From: an uncultured Chlorobiota bacterium
GTDB taxonomy: Bacteria; Bacteroidota; Ignavibacteria; UBA10030; UBA6906
Assembly: GCA_900696645.1 (NCBI GenBank)
Contig: CAADGV010000005.1
Span: forward strand, 1 to 64,000
Reading direction: 5' to 3'
Length of the DNA: 64,000 nt
Below are positions 25,707-45,162 of this stretch, piece by piece (within the stretch, counting starts at the first letter, position 1; each line of letters begins with the position of its first letter). The notes beneath the pieces are model-generated. The model was not told where the DNA came from, made no database searches, and saw only the letters and a list, made by a program, of their open reading frames with translations. The position numbers and the translations under genes were made by a program.

Positions 25707-27091
25707 GCTCGAACGACCTGTACAAAGGCTACCGCGGCGAAGCGCTCGACACGCTGAAGAACTTCGATGCGCCCATTTGGAGTGACGTTGAGATAACAAC
25801 TGAAACGGGCACGTTTAAGGGGATCATTCTTCCCCGTTCGGAAACGGCAGATCCTCACCATGTTGTTCTCAAACTGCGTGTCGGGTACAATATTGGAATT
25901 GCGGCAAAGCGGATTCGTTCCATCACCATCTCAGGACGCAAAGAGGCCCACTACAAGATTCCCGAAAAAGAATTTCCCTACGATCCGAAGAAGCCGAACG
26001 TGAAATTGTTGGGAACGGGCGGAACAATTGCAAGCCGGCTCGATTACAGAACGGGCGCCGTGATCCCCGCCTTTTCACCGGGCGAGTTATACGGCTCGGT
26101 ACCGGAGCTTGCCGATATCTGCAATCTCGAAACCGAGAAACTCTACGGTGTGTTCAGCGAGAATATGGGTCCCGAACAATGGAAAGGAACCGCCGAAGCG
26201 ATTGCGCGGGAAATCAAGAAAGGTGCGCACGGCATTGTGATCGGGCACGGCACGGATACGATGCATCACACCGCGGCAATTCTTTCGTTTATGGTTCAGA
26301 ATTCTCCCGTGCCGATTGTGATGGTCGGCTCCCAGCGCTCAAGCGACCGACCTTCATCAGACGCGGCGCTCAATCTTATGCACAGCGTGAAAACAGCGGC
26401 GGAAAGCGACATAGCGGAAGTGATGGTGTGCATGTTCGGCCCAACGTCCGATGAATACGGGTTGCTTCACCGCGGTACTCGCGTGCGCAAGATGCATTCC
26501 AGCTACCGCTCGACATTCCGGACAATCGGCGATATTCCCATTGCGATGGTCGGCAGAGAATTCATCAAACCGTTGCGTCAGGATTACAAACGTCGCCGTT
26601 CAGACACTGATGTTATTCTGAATGCAGCGTTCGAAGAGATGGTAGCCATCGTGTACTACTATCCCAACATGCGGCCCGACATTCTCGACTCGTTAATCGA
26701 CAATAACTACAAAGGAATTATTATTGCGGGAACAGGGCTCGGTCACGTCAACAAGCCGCTATATCCCGCGCTGAAGCGGGCACAGGAGAAAAACATTGCC
26801 GTGTACATGACTGTGCAGACGTTGTGGGGGTACGTGCAGATGTATGTGTACGATACCGGCCGCGATATGATGGATCTTGGTGTTGTACCGACTGCCAACA
26901 TGCTTCCGGAAGTAGCGTACATGAAATTGGGTTGGGCGTTAGGACAGACAAGTGATTTGGAAAAGGTGAAAGAGATCATGCTGACTCCCATTGCCGGCGA
27001 GATCACCGAACGAGAGCCAAGCAACGGCTACCTGATTTTCCAGGGGGGTGTCCCCGAAGTGGAGGAGTTCATATCCAAATACAGGAAATGA
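25703..27091 (+). CDS. gatD: Archaeal-type Glu-tRNA(Gln) amidotransferase subunit D (asparaginase-like)
   Basis: This 462-residue protein has an N-terminal ~90-residue beta domain (DAPIWSDVEITTETGTFKGI) of the kind that precedes the asparaginase fold in archaeal GatD. The amidase core follows with all catalytic segments: LGTGGTIASRLDYRTGAV (first Thr), GHGTDTMHHTA (Thr-Asp), MVGSQRSSDRPSSDAALNLM and the later IIIAGTGLGHVN. GatD releases ammonia from glutamine or asparagine for GatE. The start ATG at 25703 overlaps the gatE stop (ATGA), so the subunits are translationally coupled. No gatA, gatB or gatC gene occurs in the window. Confidence 0.93.
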   Translation: MSSNDLYKGYRGEALDTLKNFDAPIWSDVEITTETGTFKGIILPRSETADPHHVVLKLRVGYNIGIAAKRIRSITISGRKEAHYKIPEKEFPYDPKKPNVKLLGTGGTIASRLDYRTGAVIPAFSPGELYGSVPELADICNLETEKLYGVFSENMGPEQWKGTAEAIAREIKKGAHGIVIGHGTDTMHHTAAILSFMVQNSPVPIVMVGSQRSSDRPSSDAALNLMHSVKTAAESDIAEVMVCMFGPTSDEYGLLHRGTRVRKMHSSYRSTFRTIGDIPIAMVGREFIKPLRQDYKRRRSDTDVILNAAFEEMVAIVYYYPNMRPDILDSLIDNNYKGIIIAGTGLGHVNKPLYPALKRAQEKNIAVYMTVQTLWGYVQMYVYDTGRDMMDLGVVPTANMLPEVAYMKLGWALGQTSDLEKVKEIMLTPIAGEITEREPSNGYLIFQGGVPEVEEFISKYRK

Positions 27092-28941: not shown

Positions 28942-29850
28942 TCAGTGCCCCTTTCCCTCGATCATGGCGAAGGCGTGCAGGATTGCCGGGAAGAGGGCAT
29001 CGAGACCATCAGATACTGCGACGGGCGAACCGGGGAGGGAAACAATCAGTGTGTTGGCCCGCAGACCCGAACACGCTCGCGAGAGCATCGCCAACGGAAA
29101 CCGGGCTTGTCCGTACATTCGTATTGCCTCTTCGACACCGGGGGCTTCACGGTCAATCACTTCCCGGATTGCCTCCGGCGTAACATCCCGCGGACCGAGT
29201 CCTGTTCCGCCGGTTGTTAGAACGAGGTTGGCCTGTACGTTGTCGGCATAGTGTTTCAGCTTCTCAACAATCCTTATCTTGTCGTCGGGAATCACAGAAT
29301 AATCGGCGATCTCGAATCCCTCGGTCTTCAACCGTTCAACTATCACGTTTCCCGAACGATCAGCTCCCTTCCCGCTTGCAATCGAATCCGACATCACAAG
29401 GACTGCCGCTTTGAGAATCCTTCCCTGAGGCGTTTGGAAATCAGACTTGCCACCGGATTTCTTCACAAGACGAATCTCGCCGATCGACATCTCCTCGTCA
29501 AGCATCTTCACCATATCGTAGATCGTCAGTGCGGCAACGGACGCTGCCGTAAGAGCCTCCATCTCAACGCCGGTTTTGTAGATGGCTTTCACCGTGGCCG
29601 AGACGTCAATCCGGTTTTCGCCGAGCACATATTCAACTCCAACAAAATCAACCGGAAGAGGATGACAATACGGGATAATATCGCTGGTATGTTTGGCCGC
29701 CTGGATTGCGGCAACTTTTGCAACTTCAAGGGGATTTCCTTTCGGGATTTTGCCTTGACGAATGAGGTCGATTGTTCCGTGGCTGAGATGCAATTGTGCC
29801 GAAGCAACGGCAGTTCTGAGCGTTGTCGTCTTTCGGGAAATATCGCGCAT
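28942..29850 (-). CDS. MoaC-MoaB bifunctional fusion, molybdenum cofactor synthesis
   Basis: This 302-residue fusion has MoaC in residues 1-~145, which makes cyclic pyranopterin phosphate. Its motifs are MRDISRKTTTLRTAVASAQL, KHTSDIIPYCHPLPVDFVGV and YKTGVEMEALTAASVAALTI, with the PYCHPL and GVEMEALT active-site segments. Residues ~147-302 are a MoaB/MogA-type molybdopterin-binding domain (VLVMSDSIASGKGADRSG, LVLTTGGTGLGPRDVTPEAI, LIVSLPGSPVAVSDGLDAL). Such MoaCB fusions occur in several bacterial groups. It forms a two-gene operon with moeA. The pterin-forming MoaA and the MoaD/MoaE synthase are not in this window. Confidence 0.93.
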   Translation of the reverse strand: MRDISRKTTTLRTAVASAQLHLSHGTIDLIRQGKIPKGNPLEVAKVAAIQAAKHTSDIIPYCHPLPVDFVGVEYVLGENRIDVSATVKAIYKTGVEMEALTAASVAALTIYDMVKMLDEEMSIGEIRLVKKSGGKSDFQTPQGRILKAAVLVMSDSIASGKGADRSGNVIVERLKTEGFEIADYSVIPDDKIRIVEKLKHYADNVQANLVLTTGGTGLGPRDVTPEAIREVIDREAPGVEEAIRMYGQARFPLAMLSRACSGLRANTLIVSLPGSPVAVSDGLDALFPAILHAFAMIEGKGH

Positions 29851-31796: not shown

Positions 31797-32207
31797 ATGA
31801 AAACTCAGAATGAACCCAAAGGAGCCATGAAAGTACTTCTTGCTGATGATAACGATGATTTCCTGCTCGTGATGGAGGAGTTGATAAAGGGGCAAGGGCA
31901 TACCTTGTTGATTGCACGAGACGGAAAGCAAGCGCGTGAGTTTCTTGAAGAAGAATCGGTTGATGTCATCATCTCCGATATCTTCATGCCGACGTTGGAT
32001 GGAATACGGTTTCACAGCTATGTTCGGGAGTTGATGGGAGATAGAAAAGTCCCGTTCATTTTCATGTCAGGGTACGACGACCCCTATACGCAGGAAGCGA
32101 TAGAGGATTCCTCAATAGATTTCTTTATCAGCAAGTTGACGCCCATCAGCAAGGTCATCGAGGTGCTCGATCAGATCCAATCATCAATAACTAACGTTGA
32201 AAACTGA
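31797..32207 (+). CDS. Single-domain response regulator (receiver only)
   Basis: This 136-residue CheY-like receiver has acidic residues LLADDNDD, phospho-acceptor Asp in VIISDIFMPTLDG, Ser in FIFMSGYDD and Lys in FFISKLTPI. There is no output domain. The start at 31797 gives MKTQNEPKGAMKVLL; Met at 31827 (MKVLLADDN) fits the family better but its AAAGGAG lies only 2 bases away. The stop overlaps the start of pilB-1 by one base (TGATG), so it is the first gene of the pilus locus and probably controls pilus assembly or the PilB ATPase (inference). No histidine kinase is nearby. Confidence 0.88.
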   Translation: MKTQNEPKGAMKVLLADDNDDFLLVMEELIKGQGHTLLIARDGKQAREFLEEESVDVIISDIFMPTLDGIRFHSYVRELMGDRKVPFIFMSGYDDPYTQEAIEDSSIDFFISKLTPISKVIEVLDQIQSSITNVEN

Positions 32208-34042
32208 TGGCCTTACCGGATCAGAACACATATAAGGAGAATAGTGCAGGCGGTGTTGCTCCTGTCAAGCGTCGCTACGCCTCGGCGTTTCTTGAGCATC
32301 TCGTTCGGAACCGGATCATTACAGAGAAGATTGCGGGAGATGTATCCGATCACATCCAGGAACAAAAAGGAAACGAAAAACGCCGCATAATTGATATTCT
32401 TGCGGAAGAGTATGAGGTTTCCAAGGATGTGTTGGCGCGGGAACTTGCGCAGTTCTACTCGTTCCGGATCATTGACAGCAAAGAAAGAAGTCTGCGAAGG
32501 CTCGACAATCAGACTATCCTGAAACTGGTTGAAGCCCTGGCGCCGCCAGCGTATCGTGTTGTTATGAGGCACAAAGTGCTTCCCTTCGAAACAGCAGAAG
32601 GCCAGCCGGACAAGCTGTTGGTAGTGACCCCCAATCCGACAGACAGGGAGGTGAGCGAGGCTGCCCGTGCTTTTCCGTACGCCAAGCACGAAATCTGCTA
32701 TATGAAGGAGGTAGATTGGGATGAATTTTGGCAACAAGTATCACACTCAAAGAACACAACATCGCCGGGAGCAACCTCGGCCGGCAACGGGATGTTCGAG
32801 GAGAATGATTCGGAGCTCGATAGCGCCCTCGAACGCGAAATCGACAGCAGCCAACTCATCAATCTGGTGAACAACATATTCACCGATGCCGTACGTGTCG
32901 GGGCGAGCGACATTCATATTGTGCCAAAGGGATCCCGCAAAACCGAAATCAGCTTCCGCATCGACGGGGAGCTTACAACATGGTACACAATTGAGGACAC
33001 CCGGGCAGAGGCAGTTGTTGCCGTTGTAAAGGGACGCGGCCTCGGCCTTGACCGTTTTGAGAGAATGGCCGCCCAGGACGGCCAGGCCCAAAAGGTGGTA
33101 GACGATCAGTTAATTCGCTTCCGTATGTCTGTTCTTCCCATTATTTCCAAGGAAATGGCCGGGAAGTTCGAATCTGTTGTTATCCGGATTCTGAGAGATG
33201 CTCATGCCTCGGTTTCACTTGAATCCATCGGGTTAGACCCGTACTCGCTCGAGATGTTTCGCGAAGCAATCAACAAGCCGCACGGCATTGTCATTCTCAC
33301 CGGGCCTACGGGCAGCGGAAAAAGCACGACACTTGTCGCGGCTCTCCGGTCCGTGATGAATCCGTCCGTCTGCACCATAACGGTGGAAGATCCGGTAGAG
33401 TACTTGATTGAAGGCGCACGCCAAGTGAAGCTCAATCACAAACTTTCGTTCGACGACGCCATTCGCGCCATTCTCCGTCACGACCCCGATATCATCATGG
33501 TGGGTGAAATTCGCGATCGTGCGACGGCGGATATCGCCATCAAATTGGCAAATACCGGCCACCTGACTTTTTCCACACTGCACACCAACGATGCGGCCAG
33601 CGTTGTTTCTCGACTATTCAAGATCGGTGTTGAACCGTTTTTGATTGCACAAGCGCTGAACATTGTTGTTGCGCAGCGCCTTGTCCGAAAACTATGCGAC
33701 AAATGCAAGCGCCCGGTAAACAAGCGCGAGTTGAATCACAGTATGCTCGTGAAGTATGGATTTGATGAGGCGGAAATACCGAATCTGGAATTCTACGATC
33801 CGGTCGGCTGCCCGCAGTGCGTTGGCGGATTCAAAGGACGCAGAGCCATACACGAAACCCTGTATATCTCCCCGGAAATCCGGGAGATCATCATAGACAG
33901 CGGTGAAAAAATCGATTTGGAAGCAATTCAGCATGCTGCAATCAAACACGGTATGCGAACATTGCGGCAATCCGGATTAGCACTGGCGAAACAGGGCGTG
34001 AGCAGTATCGATGAAGTTGTAAGCGCAACAACGCGGGATTGA
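32207..34042 (+). CDS. pilB: Type IV pilus assembly ATPase PilB (first copy)
   Basis: This 611-residue GspE/PilB-family hexameric ATPase has an N-terminal MshEN-type domain (ILAEEYEVSKDVLARELAQF). The GspE-type core has Walker A GPTGSGKSTTLVAALRS, the Asp box TVEDPVEYLI, Walker B DIIMVGEIRDRATADIAIKL and the His box LTFSTLHTNDA. A tetra-cysteine zinc site CDKCKRPVN...CPQC is seen in extension ATPases but not PilT. It powers pilin polymerisation at the inner membrane together with PilC. A closely similar second PilB follows 2.8 kb downstream. The start overlaps the receiver gene's stop. Confidence 0.93.
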   Translation: MALPDQNTYKENSAGGVAPVKRRYASAFLEHLVRNRIITEKIAGDVSDHIQEQKGNEKRRIIDILAEEYEVSKDVLARELAQFYSFRIIDSKERSLRRLDNQTILKLVEALAPPAYRVVMRHKVLPFETAEGQPDKLLVVTPNPTDREVSEAARAFPYAKHEICYMKEVDWDEFWQQVSHSKNTTSPGATSAGNGMFEENDSELDSALEREIDSSQLINLVNNIFTDAVRVGASDIHIVPKGSRKTEISFRIDGELTTWYTIEDTRAEAVVAVVKGRGLGLDRFERMAAQDGQAQKVVDDQLIRFRMSVLPIISKEMAGKFESVVIRILRDAHASVSLESIGLDPYSLEMFREAINKPHGIVILTGPTGSGKSTTLVAALRSVMNPSVCTITVEDPVEYLIEGARQVKLNHKLSFDDAIRAILRHDPDIIMVGEIRDRATADIAIKLANTGHLTFSTLHTNDAASVVSRLFKIGVEPFLIAQALNIVVAQRLVRKLCDKCKRPVNKRELNHSMLVKYGFDEAEIPNLEFYDPVGCPQCVGGFKGRRAIHETLYISPEIREIIIDSGEKIDLEAIQHAAIKHGMRTLRQSGLALAKQGVSSIDEVVSATTRD

Positions 34043-34179
34043 AAGTTTGTAATGGAAGAACTGACTCAAGAGAAGTCAAAATTTCCTCATGCTGCTGTGA
34101 GATGATGGCGTTGCATAGTGTTTTGGGGCGAATTGTCATGATGGAATCCTGGCATAGCCATTGAATGAACCATAGTCAA

Positions 34180-34262
34180 CAGAACAGAAAAGAAAAAACC
34201 AGAAGCAAATTTTCAAACCAACAACCACAAACCACAACTAACAATCAAAGGGGAGATATACC
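34180..34262 (+). promoter_or_regulatory. Long G-poor leader with strong ribosome site before pilin-1
   Basis: The 220-base gap after pilB-1 ends in ~70 bases made almost only of A and C with few G (CAACAACCACAAACCACAAC region). AAAGGGGAG follows, 8 bases before ATG 34263. Such unstructured leaders favour very efficient ribosome loading and mRNA stability, as expected for the most abundant protein of the locus. A separate promoter for pilin-1 within 34043-34180 is likely but was not pinned down. Confidence 0.55.
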
Positions 34263-34670
34263 ATGGGCCAGCAACAACTTCTTCTGATCATCCTTGGCGT
34301 GATCGTCGTCGGTATCGCCGTAGCAGTCGGTATCACAATGTTCCAGGACAACGCTGTGTCCGCTAACCGCGATGCGGTTACGAACGACCTTGTGAACCTT
34401 GCTTCACGAGCACAGCAATTCTATCGTCGCCCGCAGGCGCTTGGCGGTGGCGGCAACTCGTTTGTCGGTCTGACGGCCAATGCGGCAGGTCTGGCAAAGC
34501 TGACCTCGAAGTCGGCAAACGCAAACGGTTCATACGCAATCACCACAGCCGGCACAACCGCCACTGTTGTGTTGCAGGGTACCGGTGTCGAGAAGGGAAC
34601 AGATGGCAACCCCATCAGCATTACGATGAGTGTTTTTCCCGACAGCACATATGTTTCGCAGGCTAACTAA
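34263..34670 (+). CDS. Pilin-like major subunit candidate with minimal leader (pilin-1)
   Basis: This 135-residue protein begins MGQQQLLLIILGVIVVGIAV, then AVGITMFQDNAV. A hydrophobic N-terminal helix leads into a small globular domain (NRDAVTNDLVNLASRAQQFY, ALGGGGNSFVGL, then beta strands), which is the layout of type IV pilins. Unlike normal pilins, only two residues precede a possible G/Q cleavage site and position 5 of the helix is Leu, not Glu. The best ribosome site of the locus precedes it and a terminator follows it, so it is probably the main fibre protein (inference). A paralogue follows at 34803. Alternatively it is an uncleaved minor membrane protein. Confidence 0.8.
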   Translation: MGQQQLLLIILGVIVVGIAVAVGITMFQDNAVSANRDAVTNDLVNLASRAQQFYRRPQALGGGGNSFVGLTANAAGLAKLTSKSANANGSYAITTAGTTATVVLQGTGVEKGTDGNPISITMSVFPDSTYVSQAN

Positions 34671-34685
34671 CGCCTGACATTCTGC

Positions 34686-34707
34686 GGGCTTCCAGCAATG
34701 GAAGCCC
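34686..34707 (+). terminator. Hairpin between the two pilin genes
   Basis: GGGCTTCCA (34686-34694) pairs perfectly with TGGAAGCCC (34699-34707) around a GCAA loop, followed by GGTTGTTT. It lies 15 bases after the pilin-1 stop and works as an intrinsic terminator or an mRNA-stabilising 3' end. It would make pilin-1 transcripts far more abundant than those of the downstream machine genes. Confidence 0.75.
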
Positions 34708-34802
34708 GGGTTGTTTAATAGACGTAACGTTTCATGCGGGCGTACAGGTGAGTTCACACTGGCCGAAGGCGTTCGATAGTACACGAGTAGAAGAGGCTTG
34801 AA

Positions 34803-35207
34803 ATGGGTTCGCAGCAACTATTACTGATTGTGGTGGGGGTGGTCCTGATCGGGATCATGGTTGCTGTCGGTATGAGCATGTTCAAAGACCAGGCCGCATC
34901 CACGAACCGGGATTCGATTTCCAATGACTTGGCGAACTTCGCAGTGCGGGCACAGAAGTTCTATCGCAAGCCGTTGGTGTTGGGCGGCGGCTCGTATTCG
35001 TTCAATGGATTGACGTTCAAACACATTACAAAAAATGAAACGAATTCCAACGGTACGTACGTGCTTTCGCCCGATCCTGCAAGCGGCAGCGATCCGTTTG
35101 TAACGCTGACAGGGACAGGATTCAACACCGGCAATGACGGGGCAACGCCCGTTGTCGTTCAGGTTAAGATTTGGCCGGACAGCTTGTTTGTAGAGACTCT
35201 AAATTAG
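34803..35207 (+). CDS. Pilin-like protein, paralogue of pilin-1 (pilin-2)
   Basis: This 134-residue protein starts MGSQQLLLIVVGVVLIGIMV. It shares with pilin-1 the two-residue leader, the hydrophobic helix without Glu5, the segment TNRDSISNDLANFAVRAQKF and the turn VLGGGSYSFNGLTF, as well as a WPDSLFVETLN ending against FPDSTYVSQAN. The middle loop differs (HITKNETNSNGTYVLSPDPA). It may be a minor or tip pilin of the same fibre. GAAGAGGCTTG lies before the ATG. The ~200 bases after it (35208-35408) contain no gene and only weak hairpins. Confidence 0.8.
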   Translation: MGSQQLLLIVVGVVLIGIMVAVGMSMFKDQAASTNRDSISNDLANFAVRAQKFYRKPLVLGGGSYSFNGLTFKHITKNETNSNGTYVLSPDPASGSDPFVTLTGTGFNTGNDGATPVVVQVKIWPDSLFVETLN

Positions 35208-35408
35208 GTGTGCAGACTGTGTTTGTGCGGTCTGGCTGGCAAGAAAAAAGAAATGCAGGGCGCGCCAAAAGCGCAGAGTAAAGTAGGCAGCTCTCTCCGT
35301 ATTCCGGTTGTGTTTTGCTATGTGGGGGACTTAGTAAGACTTGCAACGGAAACGACGGGAGAGCTTGCCTTTGAACGTATGAACAAACCTGAGTGAATGA
35401 GAGATACA

Positions 35409-36788
35409 ATGCCTGAATTCAGAATAGAAGGTGTCACCGCAGACGGCAAGCCGCTTCAGGGGGTTTTCGAAGCAGACTCGCTCAAAGCCGCAAAACAGAA
35501 GGCCGCGGTCATGGCCTCGCAGCGCAAGTTTAAGCTGCTGAATGTGGTTCCGCGCGCAACATGGGTCTACCGTGTTCAACGCGGAACGGAGAAGCCCGTC
35601 TCGGGAGAACAAAAAGCCTTCACAAAAGGAGAAGTAGAAGAAGCCCTGCAAAAAATGGGGTACCGCGTCATTCGAGTTCAGAAACGCTTGTTCGACTTCA
35701 GGCCAAAGCCCCCGTCAACGGAAATTGTGACATTCGTGCGCGTCAGCGCCGACCTTATCAGGCAGAAGCTTCCCTTCAATGAAATCATGCAACTGCTTGT
35801 CAACGATATCCAAAACAAAACGCTGCGCGAAACGCTGAAGGATATCAATGCCGAACTGAAGCAGGGGAAAGACAGCGAGCGGGCGTTCGTCAAGCACGAA
35901 GCCGTTCTTGGCCGTTTCACGGCGCACATGCTCGGTCTTGCCTCAAAAAGCGGCAACATGGCCGATATTTATGAGAGTACGGCAAAATTTCTCGAACGTC
36001 AGGCCGAGTTCAAGAAAAATCTCAAAAGCGCGCTCATCATGCCGGTTGTTACGCTGGTGGTTCTTTTTGGCGCAGTGGTGTATTACGTCGGATACATCTT
36101 TCCGGCAACAGCAGGGTTGTTCCGGAAATTCGGCATTGAACTGCCTCCCATGACTGCCGCGACGATGGCAATGAGTGACTTCCTGGTGGAGAACATGGGC
36201 CTCATCGCGCTCGGGACGCTGATACCGGGCGTTGTCGCAGTGAAATATTTCTCGACCGAGAAGGGGAGATTCATCCTCGATAAGTATATCTGGAGAGTGC
36301 CCATTATCGGTTCGCTGATGCACAAGAGCAGCATCGAGATATTCTGCCGCGTGTTCTACGCGTTGTACAGCGGGGCAGGCGAGAACATCGAGGTAATTCG
36401 CATGGCCGCGGAAGCATGCGGCAACAAGTTTATGGAACATCAGATCAAAACCGTTGCTCTGCCGATGATGACACAGAAGGGAGCTGGTATTATGGAAGCG
36501 TTTGAGGCGAGCGGAGTGTTCACCAAAACTGCGCTTTCCCGGTTCCATTCGGGTGCAGAGACCGGTACCGTGAAACATACAGCGTTGCAGTTGGCGGAGT
36601 ACTATGAGAAAGAGACGTCGTACAAAATGCGGAATGCCATCGACTACATCCAGGTCATCATCTCGATGATCATCATGGTCGTTCTTACGGCACTGACAAT
36701 CGTCTCGTCCGAAACGGCAACGGTGCGCCCGAAGAACCCGGCATTGGGCGTAGTAGTACAGCACTGTTCAGAACACGGCAGGACGTGA
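35409..36788 (+). CDS. pilC: Type IV pilus inner-membrane platform protein PilC/GspF
   Basis: This ~459-residue platform protein has a cytoplasmic N-terminal region (MPEFRIEGVTADGKPLQGVF ... FTKGEVEEALQKMGYRVIRV) and two T2SSF domains. The first is at about 105-225 (RVSADLIRQKLPFNEIMQLL ... ALIMPVVTLVVLFGAVVYYV), the second at about 300-435 (EIFCRVFYALYSGAGENIEV, FHSGAETGTVKHTALQLAEY). The N-terminal part is longer than usual. The C terminus runs on as TATVRPKNPALGVVVQHCSE, about 20 residues past the last helix. It couples the PilB/PilT motors to pilin insertion. The start at 35409 is chosen over 35397 on similarity to family N termini. PilB-2 begins 35 bases downstream. Confidence 0.9.
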   Translation: MPEFRIEGVTADGKPLQGVFEADSLKAAKQKAAVMASQRKFKLLNVVPRATWVYRVQRGTEKPVSGEQKAFTKGEVEEALQKMGYRVIRVQKRLFDFRPKPPSTEIVTFVRVSADLIRQKLPFNEIMQLLVNDIQNKTLRETLKDINAELKQGKDSERAFVKHEAVLGRFTAHMLGLASKSGNMADIYESTAKFLERQAEFKKNLKSALIMPVVTLVVLFGAVVYYVGYIFPATAGLFRKFGIELPPMTAATMAMSDFLVENMGLIALGTLIPGVVAVKYFSTEKGRFILDKYIWRVPIIGSLMHKSSIEIFCRVFYALYSGAGENIEVIRMAAEACGNKFMEHQIKTVALPMMTQKGAGIMEAFEASGVFTKTALSRFHSGAETGTVKHTALQLAEYYEKETSYKMRNAIDYIQVIISMIIMVVLTALTIVSSETATVRPKNPALGVVVQHCSEHGRT

Positions 36789-36823
36789 ATCGTTGATTCT
36801 CGATTCCCCATAAGAGAAGAGCA

Positions 36824-38614
36824 ATGGCAACAGTTGATATTACTGACAAGATTGGCTTCACACTTCTAAAGAAAGGCATCATTGACTACGAGACTCTTGA
36901 AAAGTCCCTGAAAGTCAAGGAAGCCGAGAGCAAGCGGAACCGGAGAAATCTGGGTCAGATTCTTGTCAATGAATTCAACGTTGAACACGATTCGGTATTC
37001 AAGGAGGTAGCCGACCTTTATGCATTCAGGGAAATCTCTCTTGAAGACGAACTGCTCGACAAGCCAAGAATCGAGTTCATCCGAAAGCTCATCGAATCGC
37101 TGCCCGAATCTGCACGAACAATGCTGCTTGAAGCAAAGATGCTGCCTCTCAAGTACGATGAACGCCAGACAGACAAGCTGATTATCCTCGCTGCCGATCC
37201 TACGGACAGGCGCATTCCGCTAATCTCACGAAACTTCAACGCGAAGAAATACGAAGTGGCGTATTGCCGCCTCGGCGCGCTTGAAAAATTGATGGAACAA
37301 GTTGTTCCGGTTGAGAATCAGTTTCTGCGTCTCTTGGAAACCAGTGCCGATGCTGGCATTGATGTCAAGGAAGACGAAGGTGCCGTTGACGAGGAAGCAC
37401 TTGAAGCGGAAATCAGCAAAAGCGCTCTTGTCAATCTCGTCGAAGGAGCCCTGGTCGAGGCGGTGCGACAGGGTGTAAGCGACATTCATATTGTTCCGAA
37501 AGGCGGGAACCGTACGGAGTTCTGGTTCCGCGTGGACGGCAACCTGCAATTGTGGCACGCCCAGGAGAGCACGTTGCCCGAAGCGATAGCGGCAGTTGTG
37601 AAGGATCGTTCAAAGAATGTTGACCGGTTCGAACGCGAAGCGTCGCAGGACGGTTTCATCCAGCGGTCAATCGATGATCACATGATCCGCTTCCGCGTTT
37701 CCATTATGCCGATGGTGGGTACAGAGTTCAAGCACAAGTACGAGAGCATCGTTATTCGTGTTCTCGATGATCGGAAGGTGATCACCGATCTGAACAAGCT
37801 CGGCCTTCAGGGGCCGACAATGGATTTCTTCCAAAGGGCAATCAACAAGCCGCAAGGCATCGTCATCCTTACCGGCCCGACCGGAAGCGGAAAAAGCACG
37901 ACGCTGGTTGCCGCTCTCCACGCAGTAATCGACCCGACAGTCAACGTTCTCACCGTCGAAGAGCCGGTGGAGTACATCATTCGCGGAGCCCGGCAATTGA
38001 AGATCGGGCCCAAGATGAATTTTGATAACGCAATCCGCGGCATACTGCGTCATGATCCTGATATCGTGCTTGTCGGCGAGATGCGAGACAAAACGACTGC
38101 CGAAATTGCCATCAAGCTGGCGAATACAGGGCACCTGACATTCTCAACACTGCACACGAACGATGCCCCCAGCGCCGTTTCACGATTGTATAAAATGGGG
38201 ATTGAGCCGTTCCTCATTGCCTACGCAATCAACGTTATTGTTGCACAGCGCCTGATACGAACCCTCTGCAAATTCTGCAAACGTCCGATTCTGCCCGATG
38301 AATTGGACCGCGAGGTATATATGAAATTCGGTTTCACGGAAGAGGAACTCGACAACAATGTAATTTTTGAGGCCGTAGGCTGCGAGAAATGCAACGGCGG
38401 CTACAAGGGCAGGGCGGCAATTCATGAAGCACTGTATTTCACAAAAACCATTCGCAATATCATTGTGAAGTCGGGTACGGAAGTTGACGAAGAACAGATA
38501 CGTACGCAGGCTATCAAAGACGGAATGTGGACATTGCGGAAGTCCGGTATCGAACGAATAAAGAGCGGCGTGTGTACGCTTGAAGAAATTGCTGCAGTAA
38601 CAACTGATGATTAA
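36824..38614 (+). CDS. Type IV pilus assembly ATPase PilB (second copy)
   Basis: This 596-residue protein has the same domain order as the first PilB. An MshEN-like N-terminal region (LGQILVNEFNVEHDSVFKEV) precedes the ATPase with Walker A GPTGSGKSTTLVAALHA, TVEEPVEYII, DIVLVGEMRDKTTAEIAIKL, STLHTNDAPSAVSR and a C4 zinc site CKFCKRPIL ... CEKCNGG. It is clearly a paralogue of the gene at 32207, with matching flanking motifs, but with GEMRD instead of GEIRD and an acidic insert (DVKEDEGAVDEEALEAEISK). Two extension motors in one locus may work as a heteromer, serve different pilins or act under different conditions (inference). Confidence 0.9.
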   Translation: MATVDITDKIGFTLLKKGIIDYETLEKSLKVKEAESKRNRRNLGQILVNEFNVEHDSVFKEVADLYAFREISLEDELLDKPRIEFIRKLIESLPESARTMLLEAKMLPLKYDERQTDKLIILAADPTDRRIPLISRNFNAKKYEVAYCRLGALEKLMEQVVPVENQFLRLLETSADAGIDVKEDEGAVDEEALEAEISKSALVNLVEGALVEAVRQGVSDIHIVPKGGNRTEFWFRVDGNLQLWHAQESTLPEAIAAVVKDRSKNVDRFEREASQDGFIQRSIDDHMIRFRVSIMPMVGTEFKHKYESIVIRVLDDRKVITDLNKLGLQGPTMDFFQRAINKPQGIVILTGPTGSGKSTTLVAALHAVIDPTVNVLTVEEPVEYIIRGARQLKIGPKMNFDNAIRGILRHDPDIVLVGEMRDKTTAEIAIKLANTGHLTFSTLHTNDAPSAVSRLYKMGIEPFLIAYAINVIVAQRLIRTLCKFCKRPILPDELDREVYMKFGFTEEELDNNVIFEAVGCEKCNGGYKGRAAIHEALYFTKTIRNIIVKSGTEVDEEQIRTQAIKDGMWTLRKSGIERIKSGVCTLEEIAAVTTDD

Positions 38615-38641
38615 TCCGCCGACTATATATGCAAAACAGCT

Positions 38642-39874
38642 ATGATTGATGTTGCCATACATACGCTGCGAGAACTCGCTTCCACAATTCCTCCGACGGC
38701 GCCGGGTGTTGAGCGCCAGATGATTATCGGTGATCTTGCAAGCAAAGCCTCGCCTGCCGAACGAACAGCAATGCGCAAGCTCATGGATGCGGTTCTTCTT
38801 CGTATGCAGAAACTCAACGCGTCCGACATCGATATCGGCGGATTGGGCACAACAGGTTACATCTGGTACCGAATTTACGGTGATAAAAAGCCGGACAGGG
38901 AACTTCCTGTCTTCACGCCGGATGAAGCAAGCCTGCTGATTCAGTCCATACTCATCGAGCGGCAACGGCTGTTTCTGTACGAAAACCGCAATCTTGATTT
39001 TTCGTACACGGTGATGCAGGACGATTCCATGTTCCGGTTTCGTGCCGATGCCTATTTCGATTTGGATCAGCTTGCGCTGAACATGCGAGCGATCAATGCA
39101 ACCGTCCGCCCGTACAAGAACCTCGATTTCCACCCGAATGTTACCAAGGCTTTGAGTCTTGCCCATTCGTCGCACGGCCTTACGCTTGTTACGGGCATTA
39201 CAGGATCCGGTAAAAGCTCAACCCTCGATAGTATCATTGACGCGAACAATCACTCGGTTGACGCGCATATCGTCATCATCTCGTCACCGATTGAGTACGT
39301 ACACAAGCCCGACCGGTGCATCGTTCGCCACCGTGAAGTGGGGCGCGATGTGCTTTCGTTCAAGGAGGGAGCAATACAAGCGTTACGTCAGGATCCCGAC
39401 ATCATCGTCATCGGTGAAATGCGCGATCCCGACACGATATTTACTGCTCTGGAAATCACCGATAGCGGGCACAAGGTGTTCTCGACATTGCATACTGCAT
39501 CCGCGATTGAAACGATTGACCGCGTCATCGGTGAAGTGCCGCCGATTGAGCAAGAACGAGTCCGCCTCCGATTGGCAGATACGCTGAGTTGCGTACTTTC
39601 CCAGAAGCTCGTGCCGACATTGGATGGCAAGCTCACATTGGCCAAGGAAATCATGCTCATGATACCTTCCGTGCGGGCAGCCATCAAAAACAATAACACC
39701 GGGGAGATCTATCAAATGATGGCCGAATCGGCAGATATCGGCATGATAACTTTGGAACAGGATTTGAAGCGATTGTATCTGCAGAGGAGAATTTCTCTCG
39801 AGACTGCGATGGTTAATGCGAATAACAAACGGCGATTGCAACAAATCCTCAATGCGAATGCAATCGGCGATTGA
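38642..39874 (+). CDS. pilT: PilT-type pilus retraction ATPase
   Basis: This 410-residue motor lacks the cysteine zinc site of PilB and has the PilT order. The N-terminal PAS-like region is LMDAVLLRMQKLNASDIDIG. Walker A is GITGSGKSSTLDSII, the Asp box IISSPIEYVH, Walker B DIIVIGEMRDPDTIFTALEI and the His box KVFSTLHTASAIETIDRVIG. RLRLADTLSCVLSQKLVP resembles the AIRNLIRE-region helix of PilT, in a variant form. PilT drives pilin depolymerisation and retraction. It follows PilB-2 by 27 bases. Confidence 0.88.
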   Translation: MIDVAIHTLRELASTIPPTAPGVERQMIIGDLASKASPAERTAMRKLMDAVLLRMQKLNASDIDIGGLGTTGYIWYRIYGDKKPDRELPVFTPDEASLLIQSILIERQRLFLYENRNLDFSYTVMQDDSMFRFRADAYFDLDQLALNMRAINATVRPYKNLDFHPNVTKALSLAHSSHGLTLVTGITGSGKSSTLDSIIDANNHSVDAHIVIISSPIEYVHKPDRCIVRHREVGRDVLSFKEGAIQALRQDPDIIVIGEMRDPDTIFTALEITDSGHKVFSTLHTASAIETIDRVIGEVPPIEQERVRLRLADTLSCVLSQKLVPTLDGKLTLAKEIMLMIPSVRAAIKNNNTGEIYQMMAESADIGMITLEQDLKRLYLQRRISLETAMVNANNKRRLQQILNANAIGD

Positions 39875-39940
39875 AACAAGCGGGAGTTCTGGCCATATGA
39901 GTAATAATAGTCACCACCGAATAACAAGGGAAGAGTCGCT

Positions 39941-41500
39941 ATGGCTATGTTAGGCGGCAAGTCAATGATAGGCCTGTTTGTTGATGGCCTCGACATCAAG
40001 CTTGCCCGTGTTACGCAAAAACGGGGCAAGGTGGTTGTTCAAGAGTTGCGTTCGGCAACGCTCATCTCCAAGTTGGAAGAACGGAAAACGGCGGAAGCGA
40101 CAATGAGTCAGTCGGCCGATGACCGCGATCCATTCCGGCTTCCCGAACTTGATTCGACCGAGCAGGCTGCCATTACCGGCGGCGAAGACAACAACGCCAT
40201 TCTGCTGGGATTGCTCTCTCAATACAAGCCAAAAAGCTACTCGCTTGCCTACGGAATCTCAGAGCCATCCATTTACTATCATGCGTTAGACAGCAACTTC
40301 GGCCTCAAGGGGAAAAACCTGAAGCTGCGGATTATCGATGAGTTGAAGAATGTTCGAACATTCCAGCCAACTCCCGATGCTGTAGATGCTATTCCGACGG
40401 AAGACGGAAACTTGTTGTGTGTTGTACGCGAAGATGGTCTCTCGCTTATCAATCATCTCGATAGCATTAAAGGATTCCTGGGGAACAGGGTGCCGAACAT
40501 TGCCGGCATTGATAGTTCAGACATAGCTCTCATGAACATGGTGAGATCGAACTATGATCTTCAGCCTGATGAGGTGTCGGTTATTATCTATGTCGGCGCC
40601 GAGTTCACGCGCCTGATTTTCATGCACGGGCCGAACTTCTACCAGTTTGCGCCTATTCTCAGCGAAGGGTACGACTCGTCGAACCTGCCCAACACTGTGT
40701 ACAGCAGGTTATTGCTTGAGCAAGATAACTTGAACATTCAGCGTGTCAGCAAGATTATTCTTGCGGGTGAAAGTCGACGAATAGAGTTCAAGGAATTCCT
40801 GCATCAAATGCTTCCCGACCAGGAAGTTGACTATCTGTTGACCCCGAATCTTGATGTCAGCCAGCTGCCGCCCGACCAGCAGGAAGCAGTGTCCGAGTAC
40901 GCTGTTGCCATTGGCGTTGCGTGGAAATTTCTTGATAGCTCGAACAAAGCATTCTACCGTACAAACTTGCTTCCGGACTCGGTACGCGAGGGGCAGCGTG
41001 TTTTCAAACTTTCATGGCACGGCTATCTGTTGCTTGCCGCCATTTTCGGATCCACACTCTTCTTCACAACACAAATTCAGCAGAAACGTCAGGAAATCAA
41101 CGAACTCAAATCTCTCCTTGACGTCAAGTCGGCCCAGATCAGCGAGAACACAACCTTGATGAACTCGATCAGCAGTTTGCGCGACCAGCTTGGAAAGTAC
41201 AACGCATCGATGGCATTGTATGATTCATTGGTGCCGGGGGCGGATAAATTCAGCAAAGCGTTCTCGCATTTGAGTCACGGCGTTGAGGACCTGAATTCGA
41301 TCTGGCTGAACGAGTTTATTGTGCCGGAAAGCGGTGAGGTAACGCTCAACGGCTTTGCCGTGAACCGATCACGCATCCCGCGTCTTTCCGCCATGTTCGA
41401 ACAGGCATTGCTGAAAGAGGTTTCAACCGAGGAAATCAGAGGTGAAACGGTGTACCGCTACAAAATAGAAGTTCCGTCCATCATGAACACGAAACAATAG
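39941..41500 (+). CDS. PilM-PilN fusion protein of the pilus alignment complex
   Basis: In this 519-residue protein, residues 1-~350 form an actin-like ATPase of PilM type: MIGLFVDGLDIKLARVTQKR, ...PNIAGIDSSDIALMNMV, VSVIIYVGAEFTRLIFMHG and VSKIILAGESRRIEFKEFL. A transmembrane helix follows at about 362-380 (LLLAAIFGSTLFFTTQ). A coiled coil comes next (QQKRQEINELKSLLDVKSAQ...) and a PilN-like periplasmic domain (IWLNEFIVPESGEVTLNGFA). In most bacteria PilM and PilN are separate and PilM binds the PilN N-terminal tail. Here the contact is covalent, as in GspL of type II secretion. AGGGAAGAG lies before the ATG. Confidence 0.85.
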   Translation: MAMLGGKSMIGLFVDGLDIKLARVTQKRGKVVVQELRSATLISKLEERKTAEATMSQSADDRDPFRLPELDSTEQAAITGGEDNNAILLGLLSQYKPKSYSLAYGISEPSIYYHALDSNFGLKGKNLKLRIIDELKNVRTFQPTPDAVDAIPTEDGNLLCVVREDGLSLINHLDSIKGFLGNRVPNIAGIDSSDIALMNMVRSNYDLQPDEVSVIIYVGAEFTRLIFMHGPNFYQFAPILSEGYDSSNLPNTVYSRLLLEQDNLNIQRVSKIILAGESRRIEFKEFLHQMLPDQEVDYLLTPNLDVSQLPPDQQEAVSEYAVAIGVAWKFLDSSNKAFYRTNLLPDSVREGQRVFKLSWHGYLLLAAIFGSTLFFTTQIQQKRQEINELKSLLDVKSAQISENTTLMNSISSLRDQLGKYNASMALYDSLVPGADKFSKAFSHLSHGVEDLNSIWLNEFIVPESGEVTLNGFAVNRSRIPRLSAMFEQALLKEVSTEEIRGETVYRYKIEVPSIMNTKQ

Positions 41501-41522
41501 GAGACGGAGAAAGGAGCAAGAC

Positions 41523-42449
41523 GTGTCATACAAGGTCCGAAATAGCATTGTGCTTGGCGTATTACTGTTGCTCATCATGGGCGTTGGTACATTCGTGCGG
41601 GCGTATCACCTTCCCAAGGAGTCGAAAGCCTTGGCGGCTGAAATCGAGAAGATCGAAGAGGAATTGAGCAACACTCCGGGGCTCATCAATGAATACAACG
41701 AACTCAGCGCAACAGTGGAGGATACGAAGGCTCGATGGGAAAGCCGAAGCAAGGAAATTCCTCCGGAAGACATTACCGGCAAGACATACGAATATTTCAG
41801 TACTCTCATCGAACGAAGCGGCGGCCTGAAATTGAACATGATATACCAGGGCCCGCAAATGAAAGACAACTATGGTTTTAACGTGTACAACTTGCGCGGC
41901 GAAGGTCCGTACTCGAATCTCTACAAATTCCTCTGGCATATCGAAAACGGACGCAAGCTGTTCAAGATCAACACGCTGAATATGAAGGGACTCGAAATTG
42001 CGGAGAATGAAAAAACAGCAGGCGATATTCTGGTGACCTTTGAAATGACGGTACACGCATTTTACGCTGCCATTCCGGAATTGGCCAAGCCGAGTTCCGG
42101 ACGCGAGGATACGCCTCCGTACTTGTCGCAAGATCCGTTCCTGCCTGTGATTACCGCCCTCTTGCCTCCGAACAAGACGAATCTTGTGGAGATTGAGCGT
42201 TCGGATTTGAAGGCCGTCATTCCGGGCAAGGCGTTTGTCTTTGATCAGAACAACAACTTCAGAACCTTACAGTGGGGAGATGAAGTATATCTCGGCTATG
42301 TAACAAAGCTACTGCCGGAAGAAGGCAAGATCGAATGTACCCTGAACAAGGGGGGCATTATCGAAAAAGTGGAATTGAAAATACGATATGCTGCGGGACA
42401 ACAGGCAGCGTTGGGTCAACAACCCGATTTATTGAACAAAAAGCCTTGA
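41523..42449 (+). CDS. PilO-PilP fusion protein of the pilus alignment complex
   Basis: This 308-residue protein has a GTG start (AAAGGAGCAAGAC just upstream) and one N-terminal membrane helix (SIVLGVLLLLIMGVGTFV). A coiled coil (ESKALAAEIEKIEEELSNTP) and a PilO-type ferredoxin-like domain follow (TYEYFSTLIERSGGLKLNMI...YSNLYKFLWHIENGRKLFKI). The final ~100 residues resemble PilP: a proline-rich linker (QDPFLPVITALLPPNKTNLV) and a beta domain (AVIPGKAFVFDQNNNFRTLQ, VYLGYVTKLLPEEGKIECTL). PilO pairs with PilN and PilP binds the secretin; the fusion would link the inner platform straight to PilQ, encoded 8 bases downstream. Confidence 0.8.
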   Translation: MSYKVRNSIVLGVLLLLIMGVGTFVRAYHLPKESKALAAEIEKIEEELSNTPGLINEYNELSATVEDTKARWESRSKEIPPEDITGKTYEYFSTLIERSGGLKLNMIYQGPQMKDNYGFNVYNLRGEGPYSNLYKFLWHIENGRKLFKINTLNMKGLEIAENEKTAGDILVTFEMTVHAFYAAIPELAKPSSGREDTPPYLSQDPFLPVITALLPPNKTNLVEIERSDLKAVIPGKAFVFDQNNNFRTLQWGDEVYLGYVTKLLPEEGKIECTLNKGGIIEKVELKIRYAAGQQAALGQQPDLLNKKP

Positions 42450-42456
42450 GGGGAGC

Positions 42457-43704
42457 ATGAAAACACCTACCGTCATAATCGCAATTGCGCTGTTCGTTGC
42501 TTGCATCGTGCCTGCATCGGCCCAGCCTCTGAATCCCGTAGAACGCCGGGCGCTGAAAGAGTATATATCGCCCGATGAATTGGTGTCGATAGCACCAACC
42601 GCTTCGCTCGACAAGGCGTTCAGTGCCATCAGCGAAGTGAGCAAGAAATTTACTGGAAAGATCATTATCGATCCCGAACGCCGCAACGATCCGGTTGGCG
42701 TGGATATTACAGGAATGCAGTGGAGGATCGCCCTTGAAACGATTTGCCGCAAGAACAATCTGTGGTACGACGAATACACGAGCTATTTCCAGATTGTTTC
42801 GTTGGGCAACGGCGAAGGAAAAGGGCGGGATGGTATGGCCGGAACAATGATGCCGGTCAGCGCGGAAATGCAGAAAGAGATCGCGACCATCAAAAGCCGG
42901 GAAATCAAAATCTCCGCGGTGTTCTTTGAAGTGTCTCTGACGAAACTCGAAGAAGTTGGTGTCAACTGGAGTTTCATGAAGAGCAACAAGGATGTCTCGG
43001 TCAACTCACAGTTCAAGGCGGCGGACAATGTGTCGTCTGATTTGTTCAAAATGGACGTGACCCCGAAAATTTCGTTTGCCAGCATCAATACCGTGGCAAA
43101 AATATTTTCGGCATACGACCTGGGGGAAATTCTCTCCGGTCCGCAGCTGATTGTCCGTTCGGGCGAAAAGGGAAGAATTCAGGTCGGGCAGGATTTCTCG
43201 ATCAAGGAACGTGATTTTTCGGGAAACCTCCTCGACAAGTTTTACAGTACAGGTACCATTATCGATGTGCGTCCGCAAGTAATTTCGGAATCGGGCGTCA
43301 ACTTCATTCACATCCTCGTCGATGTCGAGCGAAGTTCGTTGGTGCCTTCCCAGGGAAGCACCATCATCAACAAAACAAAGGCGAATACCAACGTTCTTCT
43401 TCTTGATGGTGAAGAAACAATTATCGGCGGCTTGTACAACAATGAAGTGCAGGAAACGCGGCTCGGAATACCTCTGTTGAAAGACCTGCCGTGGTATGTG
43501 TTCGGGTTGCGGTATCTGTTCGGATACAACAAAGACGAAGTACGTAAGAAGGAATTGATTATTCTCCTCAAAGCGGAGCTTGTTCCGACGCTTCAGGAAC
43601 GTGTTGCGCAGAAAGTTCAGGAAGATGGTGTGTATCAGCGATGGCAAGATGGAGTCCAGCGACAGGTTGATCATGTAACAGGTGCAAGGAAGGAGGGACA
43701 ATAG
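42457..43704 (+). CDS. pilQ: Short secretin, PilQ/GspD-like outer-membrane channel
   Basis: This 415-residue protein has a signal peptide (MKTPTVIIAIALFVACIVPA...), a single STN/N0-like domain at about 40-115 (ASLDKAFSAISEVSKKFTGK ... LETICRKNNLWYDEYTSYFQ) and the secretin core at about 145-385. Core motifs are ISAVFFEVSLTKLEEVGVNW, GEILSGPQLIVRSGEKGRIQ, VGQDFSIKERDF, TGTIIDVRPQVI, VLLLDGEETIIGGLYNNEV, GIPLLKDLPWYVFGLRYLFG and LIILLKAELVPT. Typical PilQ proteins are 600-750 residues with AMIN and N1 domains; these are missing. It forms the gated ring through which the pilus or substrate leaves the periplasm. Confidence 0.9.
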   Translation: MKTPTVIIAIALFVACIVPASAQPLNPVERRALKEYISPDELVSIAPTASLDKAFSAISEVSKKFTGKIIIDPERRNDPVGVDITGMQWRIALETICRKNNLWYDEYTSYFQIVSLGNGEGKGRDGMAGTMMPVSAEMQKEIATIKSREIKISAVFFEVSLTKLEEVGVNWSFMKSNKDVSVNSQFKAADNVSSDLFKMDVTPKISFASINTVAKIFSAYDLGEILSGPQLIVRSGEKGRIQVGQDFSIKERDFSGNLLDKFYSTGTIIDVRPQVISESGVNFIHILVDVERSSLVPSQGSTIINKTKANTNVLLLDGEETIIGGLYNNEVQETRLGIPLLKDLPWYVFGLRYLFGYNKDEVRKKELIILLKAELVPTLQERVAQKVQEDGVYQRWQDGVQRQVDHVTGARKEGQ

Positions 43705-43707
43705 ACA

Positions 43708-45162
43708 ATGAGGAGAGTATTTTTGGGAACGGCTGCAATACTTGCTCTTGCGTTTGTGTTGAATGCGTGCAGCAATGATGATACGGGGCCCAGCGCGGGC
43801 GTTGCGGTGGTTTCCGGTTTTGTAAAAGACGCAAAGAACCGGATGCCGCTGAGCGGAGTCCTCGTCGAAGGCAAGGCCGGAACAACAGTTACAGCACAGG
43901 CCACGACGGACGATCAGGGCCGTTTTGAACTTCGCTTCAATGTCGACAGCGCAATGACGGCAAAAATCTCGATCCGTAACGTCACGGGATACCGCGATAC
44001 CATTGACATCTCAATTTCTGTGACTCCCAACGAGGCGGTGTTGCGCGATATCGATCTGAATCCGAAGTCACAAGTGATTGGCGGAGGCGGCAGCACAAGC
44101 GGCCTTGCGCAAACGTTTGCATTTCTCGGCGCCGACCCGATGCAGGTTTCGGTGTACGGTGTGGGCGGCCAGGAAACGGCAGTGTTGGGCTTCGAGGCAA
44201 GGGATTCGCTCGGCCTTCCTGTAGATGCGGCGCATGCTGTACAGATTACCTTCAGCCTTCAGGGCGGGCCGAACGGCGGTGAGTATCTCTCTCCGACAAC
44301 AATCACGACAAATGCTGTCGGGCGCGCATTCATTGCCTTCAACAGCGGCACACGCTCAGGCGTAGTACAGGTTGTGGCAACCGCAACCGTTGCCGGACGG
44401 GTCATTACCTCATCGCCTGTTCGCGTCGTCATCAACGCCGGCTTTGCGGATCAGGCACACTTCACGATTGCAGCCGAGCGACGTAATTTCCCGACGTGGG
44501 GTGTTGCCGGCAATCGAAACAAGATCGGTGTCATTGTGGGGGATAGATATTCAAACCCTGTAGTCGTGAACACAGCCGTGTACTTCCGAAGCAGCGCCGG
44601 TGTTATTCAGCCGACCGTCTTCACAAATATCGATGGATTGGGATCCGCTGACTTGATCAGTGGAAACCCGCTTCCTATGGGCCAATATGCTGCACAGCAG
44701 TACGGTACAGGATATCATTATGTAGCGGCTCGAACGATCGGCCAGGGAGGCGTTCCGGTTGAAGACAGCATTCTCGTGTTGTGGAGCGCGCATGCTGAAA
44801 TCAAAAATGTTACACCGCTTACGTTCAACATTGCGAATGGCGGTTCACAGGATTTCACATTCAATGTATCCGATTTCAACGGTAACCCGCTTGCAGCAGG
44901 AACAACAATAAGAGTGGTTGCAAGTGTGCCACCGCCGCCGGATCCGAATACGCCGGTGAATCAGGTGCAACTTGCCTTCGGCAATCAGGGGACGATTGCC
45001 CTTAACGATATACTCTTCAGAGGAGCCGGTGTCACCGACTTCAGTTTTCGGCTGAGTGACGGGACTCCGAACATTGATCGCCCCACTCCTACATCAGTTT
45101 CTATTACAGTCGCAGGGCCCAACGGCAACGCTTACTATACACTGGATGGAATCGTGCAGTAA
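43708..45162 (+). CDS. Lipoprotein with CarboxypepD-like and Big-1-like domains, pilus operon end
   Basis: This 484-residue protein has a lipoprotein signal, FLGTAAILALAFVLNACSND. Residues ~30-115 form a carboxypeptidase-regulatory-like beta domain (VVSGFVKDAKNRMPLSGVLV ... LRDIDLNPKSQV). Residues ~160-250 form a Big-1/invasin-like domain (AVQITFSLQGGPNGGEYLSP, TTITTNAVGRAFIAFNSGTR). A second one lies at about 265-360 (IGVIVGDRYSNPVVVNTAVY, GVIQPTVFTNIDGLGSADLI) with a further beta domain behind. It starts 4 bases after the secretin gene, so it is the last gene of the locus. It could be an adhesin, a secretin-associated pilotin-like protein or a fibre-associated protein. Confidence 0.8.
   Translation: MRRVFLGTAAILALAFVLNACSNDDTGPSAGVAVVSGFVKDAKNRMPLSGVLVEGKAGTTVTAQATTDDQGRFELRFNVDSAMTAKISIRNVTGYRDTIDISISVTPNEAVLRDIDLNPKSQVIGGGGSTSGLAQTFAFLGADPMQVSVYGVGGQETAVLGFEARDSLGLPVDAAHAVQITFSLQGGPNGGEYLSPTTITTNAVGRAFIAFNSGTRSGVVQVVATATVAGRVITSSPVRVVINAGFADQAHFTIAAERRNFPTWGVAGNRNKIGVIVGDRYSNPVVVNTAVYFRSSAGVIQPTVFTNIDGLGSADLISGNPLPMGQYAAQQYGTGYHYVAARTIGQGGVPVEDSILVLWSAHAEIKNVTPLTFNIANGGSQDFTFNVSDFNGNPLAAGTTIRVVASVPPPPDPNTPVNQVQLAFGNQGTIALNDILFRGAGVTDFSFRLSDGTPNIDRPTPTSVSITVAGPNGNAYYTLDGIVQ

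Follow-up and report, generated by a model that had tools for sequence, protein, structure and literature searches.

We propose that two neighbouring genes of an uncultured Chlorobiota bacterium probably encode a leaderless class of pilins, which would build a type IVa-like pilus, be polymerised without a prepilin peptidase, probably lose Met1 only, and perhaps use Gln4-Gln5 in place of Glu5. The genes, for MG-pilin A (34263..34670 (+), 135 residues) and MG-pilin B (34803..35207 (+), 134 residues), lie in a stretch of 64,000 nucleotides (the window) at the start of contig CAADGV010000005.1 and are named after their common N-terminus, MG[Q/S]QQLLLI. The MG-pilin machine lacks the cutting enzyme in most of its carriers, which suggests that the pilus is assembled by a shortened route.

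The original prediction of two open reading frames (ORFs) with this start, made from the DNA letters of the window, proved right: pilin A (P0001) begins MGQQQLLLIILGVIVVGIAVAVG (N-terminal stretch also given as MGQQQLLLIILG), and pilin B (P0002) begins MGSQQLLLIVVGVVLIGIMVAVG (also given as MGSQQLLLIVVG). The stop-to-stop frames comprise 142 codons (A) and 138 codons (B), and a purine-rich Shine-Dalgarno-like stretch stands ahead of each ATG. The upstream frame is closed after only 7 (A) and 4 (B) in-frame codons, none of which is a start codon, and there is thus no hidden leader. A mis-annotated start is rejected on these grounds, and most relatives show the same arrangement: an in-frame stop lies at most 10 codons upstream in 102/124 copies, and 116 of the 124 have no ATG, GTG or TTG before the stop.

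In the MG-pilin family, conservation is highest at the N-terminus. The wider set of relatives (427 found, 79 loci kept) was collected with MGQQQLLL among six search patterns; we therefore repeated the N-terminus test on 29 loci (L022-L050), using a model from which all columns up to residue 30 were left out. All 63 homologous ORFs in this test begin [M]GxQQ, a recurrence that is not due to chance, with Met first in 59 and Val or Leu in 4, consistent with GTG/TTG starts; none of the 63 has a charged residue in its first 12 positions. A family alignment was also made, in which 130 pilin-like ORFs were reduced to 122 full-length ones with an MG start and to 117 non-redundant ones, 116 of which together with the two window proteins gave 118 sequences. 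Positions 4, 5, 7 and 17 are invariant in this alignment, Q, S or T occupies position 3, and positions 1-24 are free of acidic and basic residues in all 118 sequences. Gly2 is invariant both in the 63 unbiased copies and in all 118 aligned sequences; in the alignment, an MG start was the entry condition, and invariance at the sites covered by it and by the MGQQQLLL search pattern is partly by construction.

These properties depart from those of known pilins. According to the available part of a review (PMC4471445), a dedicated peptidase cuts the prepilin leader, which is 6-26 residues long and ends in Gly, and mutants in Glu5 form no homopolymers. In the MG-pilins, one (or two) residues before Gln3 stand where a class III leader would have 6-26 hydrophilic residues; what the original prediction called a two-residue leader does start with MG, as claimed, and the proteins are more aptly called leaderless. 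Glu5 is missing in every numbering considered, again as predicted: a mature protein beginning at residue 2, 3 or 4 would have Leu at position 5, and an uncut one would have Gln there. The hydrophobic tract of about 21 residues that typifies type IV pilins is present at residues 6-27, the start of a long helix.

Both predicted structures show the pilin fold of an N-terminal helix and an antiparallel sheet. The AlphaFold2 model of pilin A (mean predicted local distance difference test (pLDDT) score 89.6; 118 aligned relatives) has a helix at residues 2-55 followed by a four-stranded sheet; that of pilin B (mean pLDDT 85.7; 52 aligned relatives) has the same fold with a helix at 2-55. The top 14 structural matches of pilin A are all type IV pilins (Z 6.3-9.5; first other protein Z 4.6), among them PilV (Z 9.5, 87 residues, root-mean-square deviation (rmsd) 2.3) and full-length PAK pilin (Z 8.2, 119 residues, rmsd 3.4). 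The top eight matches of pilin B are likewise all pilins (Z 6.9-9.7; next, unrelated, Z 5.7), with PAK pilin at Z 9.7 over 118 residues (rmsd 2.8). The fold comparison of the two models speaks against unrelated membrane proteins without a pilin fold, an outcome that the original prediction had named as its refutation and that we reject. For pilin A, the sole Pfam hit is a sub-threshold ComP_DUS match, and NCBIfam has no fitting family for the two proteins; ComP_DUS matches at E <= 0.01 occur in 22/118 family members, and a weak match of this kind is also seen in conventional pilins of two relatives. Pilin identity is therefore argued from fold and context rather than from sequence.

The absence of a prepilin peptidase, predicted for the locus, extends to the whole genome from which the window comes. 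In this genome, which is 100% complete, no PilD or Peptidase_A24 (PF01478) match was found at E <= 0.1 in a search that was positive in 12/14 controls. Type IV filament systems have a dedicated or borrowed prepilin peptidase; neither is seen here. Nor does the genome have an N-methyl pilin or any other pilin candidate (10/14 controls positive), which answers the second objection foreseen in the original prediction, namely that conventional prepilins elsewhere account for the fibre. A PilD gene missed through incompleteness is unlikely, given the complete genome and seven single-contig relatives also without PilD. Of 245 genomes from the class (Ignavibacteria), 129 have MG-pilin, 129 have PilC (PF00482) and 126 have both; G320, G335 and G356 have MG-pilin without PilC, and G196, G326 and G397 (the last a weak match) have PilC without MG-pilin. 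PilD scores over cut-off in 12 of the 245 and is absent from 117/129 MG-pilin genomes, seven of these single-contig; 112 of the 129 have neither PilD nor an N-methyl pilin over cut-off, and six genomes have an N-methyl match over cut-off yet no PilD. At phylum level (296 genomes), MG-pilin is found in 101, PilD (E <= 0.001) in 38 and both in 11.

The two pilin genes belong to a co-directed gene run at 31797-45162 that is followed by uvrA. The run opens with a single-domain response regulator (31797..32207 (+)), identified by receiver matches and synteny, which overlaps the start of PilB1 and precedes the pilin operon in close relatives as well. PilB-like assembly ATPase 1 (32207..34042 (+); T2SSE E 1.4e-103; best NCBIfam match type_IV_pilB, 421 bits, under cut-off) precedes the two pilins. 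Downstream follow a PilC-like inner-membrane platform (35397..36788 (+); T2SSF E 6.1e-29; NCBIfam PilC/GspF under cut-off), PilB-like assembly ATPase 2 (36824..38614 (+); T2SSE E 6.6e-98; type_IV_pilB 416.6 bits, under cut-off) and a PilT-like retraction ATPase (38642..39874 (+); TIGR01420 pilT_fam 313.8 bits vs. a cut-off of 319.1). Next come a PilM/PilN-like protein of 519 residues, probably fused (39941..41500 (+); weak matches to Amuc_1101 PilM-like, E 2.5e-7, and PilN, E 0.081, and position), and a PilO-like, perhaps also PilP-like, protein with a GTG start (41523..42449 (+); position, synteny and a weak T2SSM_b match, E 0.061). The run ends with a secretin of PilQ/GspD type (42457..43704 (+), 415 residues; PF00263 E 2.3e-26) and, directly 3' of it, a lipoprotein-like protein with Ig-like repeats (43708..45162 (+); Big_1/Invasin_D3 over cut-off; lipobox-like N-terminus), whose membership in the pilus system is uncertain. 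The pilus-machine operon of the original prediction thus holds for the two PilB ATPases, PilC, PilT and the secretin, with strong Pfam matches for the ATPases, PilC and the secretin (PF00437, PF00482 and PF00263), and the labels PilM, PilN, PilO and PilP are weak matches and position only. The assembly ATPase, platform protein and, for a diderm, secretin that mark the type IV filament superfamily are all present at the locus.

The order pilin-PilC-PilB2-PilT-PilMN-PilO-PilQ recurs, within the reach of the contigs, in Ignavibacteria, Kryptonia-type, Calditrichota and KSB1 records. PilC lies downstream of the MG-pilin in 62/79 loci; eight loci end within 1.5 kb, and nine have room for PilC but lack it, leaving the pilin stand-alone. 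The expectation that such pilins always sit between pilB and pilC fails, above all on the upstream side, where a PilB1-like gene is found in only 11/79 loci. Overall, the idea of a distinct pilin class working with an otherwise normal machine is supported by the predicted fold, the co-occurrence with PilC (126 genomes), the synteny and the lack of PilD and N-methyl pilins in the genome of the window. As separate observations, a third MG-pilin copy of this genome (MGQQQILFLILGVC; L160:8176-8586 (+), G000:C33) stands alone, with no pilus genes in the 18 kb examined; genomes G255, G427 and G465 have 9 to 11 MG-pilin matches each, some of them perhaps minor pilins that carry different C-terminal domains; and MG-pilins occur on contigs labelled Patescibacteria, Actinomycetota, Kerfeldbacteria and Deltaproteobacteria (L062, L075, L084 and L110), which are possibly misbinned or transferred.

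We suggest the following route of assembly. The pilin subunits would have lost the class III leader, and translation would begin at, or one to three residues before, the would-be mature N-terminus; the hydrophobic helix (about residues 6-27) would be inserted N-in into the inner membrane; and Met1 would then be removed by methionine aminopeptidase, probably leaving an N-terminal Gly. The Gly at position 2 favours such a step, as the enzyme should cleave off Met where Gly follows (it also accepts Ala or Ser). PilC and the PilB ATPases would polymerise the subunits through the secretin, and PilT would retract the fibre; polymerisation of leaderless subunits in this manner would need neither a prepilin peptidase nor N-methylation. 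The invariant polar Gln4-Gln5 at the start of the helix would probably take over the polar contact made by Glu5 in ordinary pili.

Against mature pilins, the register of the MG-pilins can be placed only to within one helical turn: the offset is 3 against PAK pilin (A and B), 1 against GC pilin (A), 2 when two weak ComP_DUS matches are read against each other, and 3 in an hhalign result of 0.9% probability. The offset of 2, from the matches of pilin A and two conventional pilins, sets residue 3 as mature position 1, and the invariant Gly2 (63/63 unbiased copies) is reminiscent of Gly-1 of prepilins; both would fit a minimal leader, in which Met-Gly is vestigial, an unrecognised non-A24 peptidase cuts after Gly2 and the mature protein starts at Gln3. 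We regard this as unlikely: 117/129 carriers have no A24 peptidase; residue 3 is Gln, Ser or Thr rather than the usual hydrophobic residue; the offset from structural alignments is 1 or 3; and prepilin leaders are reported to have 6-26 residues in the part of the review available (PMC4471445), far more than two.

Somewhat less probable still is that the MG-proteins, for all their pilin fold, do not act as fibre subunits and serve instead, for instance, as a membrane-bound scaffold or as a pseudopilus for secretion or assembly initiation. Two similar copies adjoining PilC and the stand-alone copies (9/79 loci and the third copy in the genome of the window) could be read in this way. Such a role is at odds with the lack of any other pilin candidate in the genome, with the joint presence of MG-pilin and PilC in 126/132 genomes that have either, and with PilT, which fits a dynamic fibre.

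Where PilD exists in the class, it serves another system. An N-methyl pilin match lies at most 1.5 kb from a PilD gene, by coordinates, in all 12 PilD-positive genomes (G328, G364, G368 and G374 were judged by coordinates only), and the pilins in eight fetched PilD regions are leader-bearing prepilins of the type GFSLTELMVVLVIIG. A PilD model, built from 16/37 candidate loci with plus-strand ORFs only, detected PilD in 8/11 fetched cluster regions, the other three being two MG clusters (L163 and L166) and one short contig (L164); it has no match in the 79 MG-pilin loci or in the window. Eight PilC proteins from PilD clusters share at most 21.7% identity with the window PilC, vs. at least 45% for the 59 PilC proteins of MG loci (the window's included), and a PilC tree splits MG-locus from PilD-cluster proteins (support 0.85; no outside root). 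The conventional system of the PilD-positive relatives (L161, L168 and others) resembles the MG system in its T2SSF protein, PilB-like ATPase and weak ComP_DUS match in the pilin, but differs in its prepilins with leaders, adjoining PilD and divergent PilC. It is very improbable that PilD processes the MG-proteins even so, either overlooked or lent by another system of the same genome, the arrangement assumed for MSH loci: although PilD occurs in 12/129 carriers of the class and in 18/25 carriers mainly from other phyla, and prepilin peptidases are known to be shared (PMC6668835, available part), the genome of the window has no PilD at E <= 0.1 with 12/14 controls positive, seven single-contig carriers have none either, and MG-proteins of PilD-positive genomes (L024 and L044) have the same start.

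Several points weigh against leaderless pilins as we propose them. The pilus is known here from genes and predicted structures. Foldseek by itself gives a weak result, with PAK pilin as the best pilin (E 0.11, probability 0.98), and comparing the family profile with eight conventional pilins from the class reveals no sequence relation (hhalign probability 0.9%). PilD in the class is confined to MG-pilin genomes (12/12); its presence in 18/25 carriers mainly from other phyla (KSB1, Calditrichota, LCP-89 and similar records) means that its absence is not general there, and PilD could act in those carriers. The main difficulty of the simple Met-removal model is the invariance of Gly2, which it does not explain, since Ala and Ser are also accepted, and which fits a cleavage site as well.

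Compared with type IVa pili (T4aP), the MG system is alike in its PilB, PilC, PilT, secretin and PilM/N/O-like genes, with a PilB closest to type IV-A PilB and a PilT near the T4aP PilT family, in the PAK/GC pilin fold predicted here, and in a sigma-54-like site before the pilin gene; it is unlike T4aP in having no leader, no Glu5, no N-methyl motif and no prepilin peptidase in the genome. Two sources, in the portions available, count a prepilin peptidase and pilins bearing class III signals as conserved components of the type IV filament machinery (PMC4471445, PMC6668835). The MSH pilus also has a locus without a prepilin peptidase gene, but its genomes always hold another system that encodes one, as stated in the available part of a type IV filament survey (PMC6668835), whereas 117/129 MG carriers of the class have none. 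Archaeal pilins, like MG-pilins, often lack Glu5, but keep leader and prepilin peptidase, with Nanoarchaeota named as having no detected peptidase (PMC4471445, available part).

The type IV filament survey required a major pilin profile, and its main text, in the part available, is silent on Ignavibacteria and Calditrichota (PMC6668835). The 2013 genome paper of Melioribacter roseus reports, in the part available, pilB, pilC, pilT and pilQ without pilA or pilD, a set that its authors judged probably incomplete. By record titles, M. roseus belongs to the same class as the bacterium of the window, and an MG-pilin was not recognised in the available part of that paper; the MG-pilin family is probably the missing pilA of Melioribacter. 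We found no description of a leaderless pilin class in the literature searched, with bioRxiv and most subscription journals outside its scope.

A predicted sigma-54-like promoter site, TGGCATAGCCATTGAA, lies at 34150..34165 (+), 113 bases upstream of pilin A. The pattern TGGYAYN5TTGMW is found in 20/124 MG-pilin upstream regions vs. 2/2480 shuffles, and an RpoN gene is present in the genome, which suggests that MG-pilin genes may be under RpoN control. A sigma-54-type site also precedes pilA in other bacteria. Sites of this kind mostly lie 77-119 bases before the starts of pilin A homologues (e.g. L051, L055, L061 and L064). A ComEC gene was also found in the genome; with PilT and ComEC both present, retraction and DNA uptake by the putative pilus are plausible. 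Elsewhere the window, from a bacterial genome in the Bacteroidota group, encodes GatE and GatD of an archaeal-type Glu-tRNA(Gln) amidotransferase (23793-27091 (+)), both scoring over their NCBIfam equivalog cut-offs, and a fused MoaC/MoaB molybdenum cofactor protein (28942-29850 (-)), which scores over cut-off and is ordinary.

On a wider scale, we judge the chances about even that the MG-pilins mark a deep type IV filament lineage, spanning Bacteroidota (Ignavibacteria and other classes), Calditrichota, KSB1 and related phyla, with leaderless pilins, no peptidase, no N-methylation, and invariant glutamines that form a ring in the core of the filament and replace the contact of Glu5 with the N-terminus. 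Screens for prepilin signals or known pilin profiles will miss such pili, and the 2013 Melioribacter paper, as far as its available part goes, seems to be a case. A large bacterial group without peptidase and class III signal would demonstrate that the polymerisation step as such can proceed without removal of a leader, and such a natural variant would let the roles of Glu5 and of the N-terminus be tested. If true, prepilin processing would not be universal for the assembly of type IV filaments.
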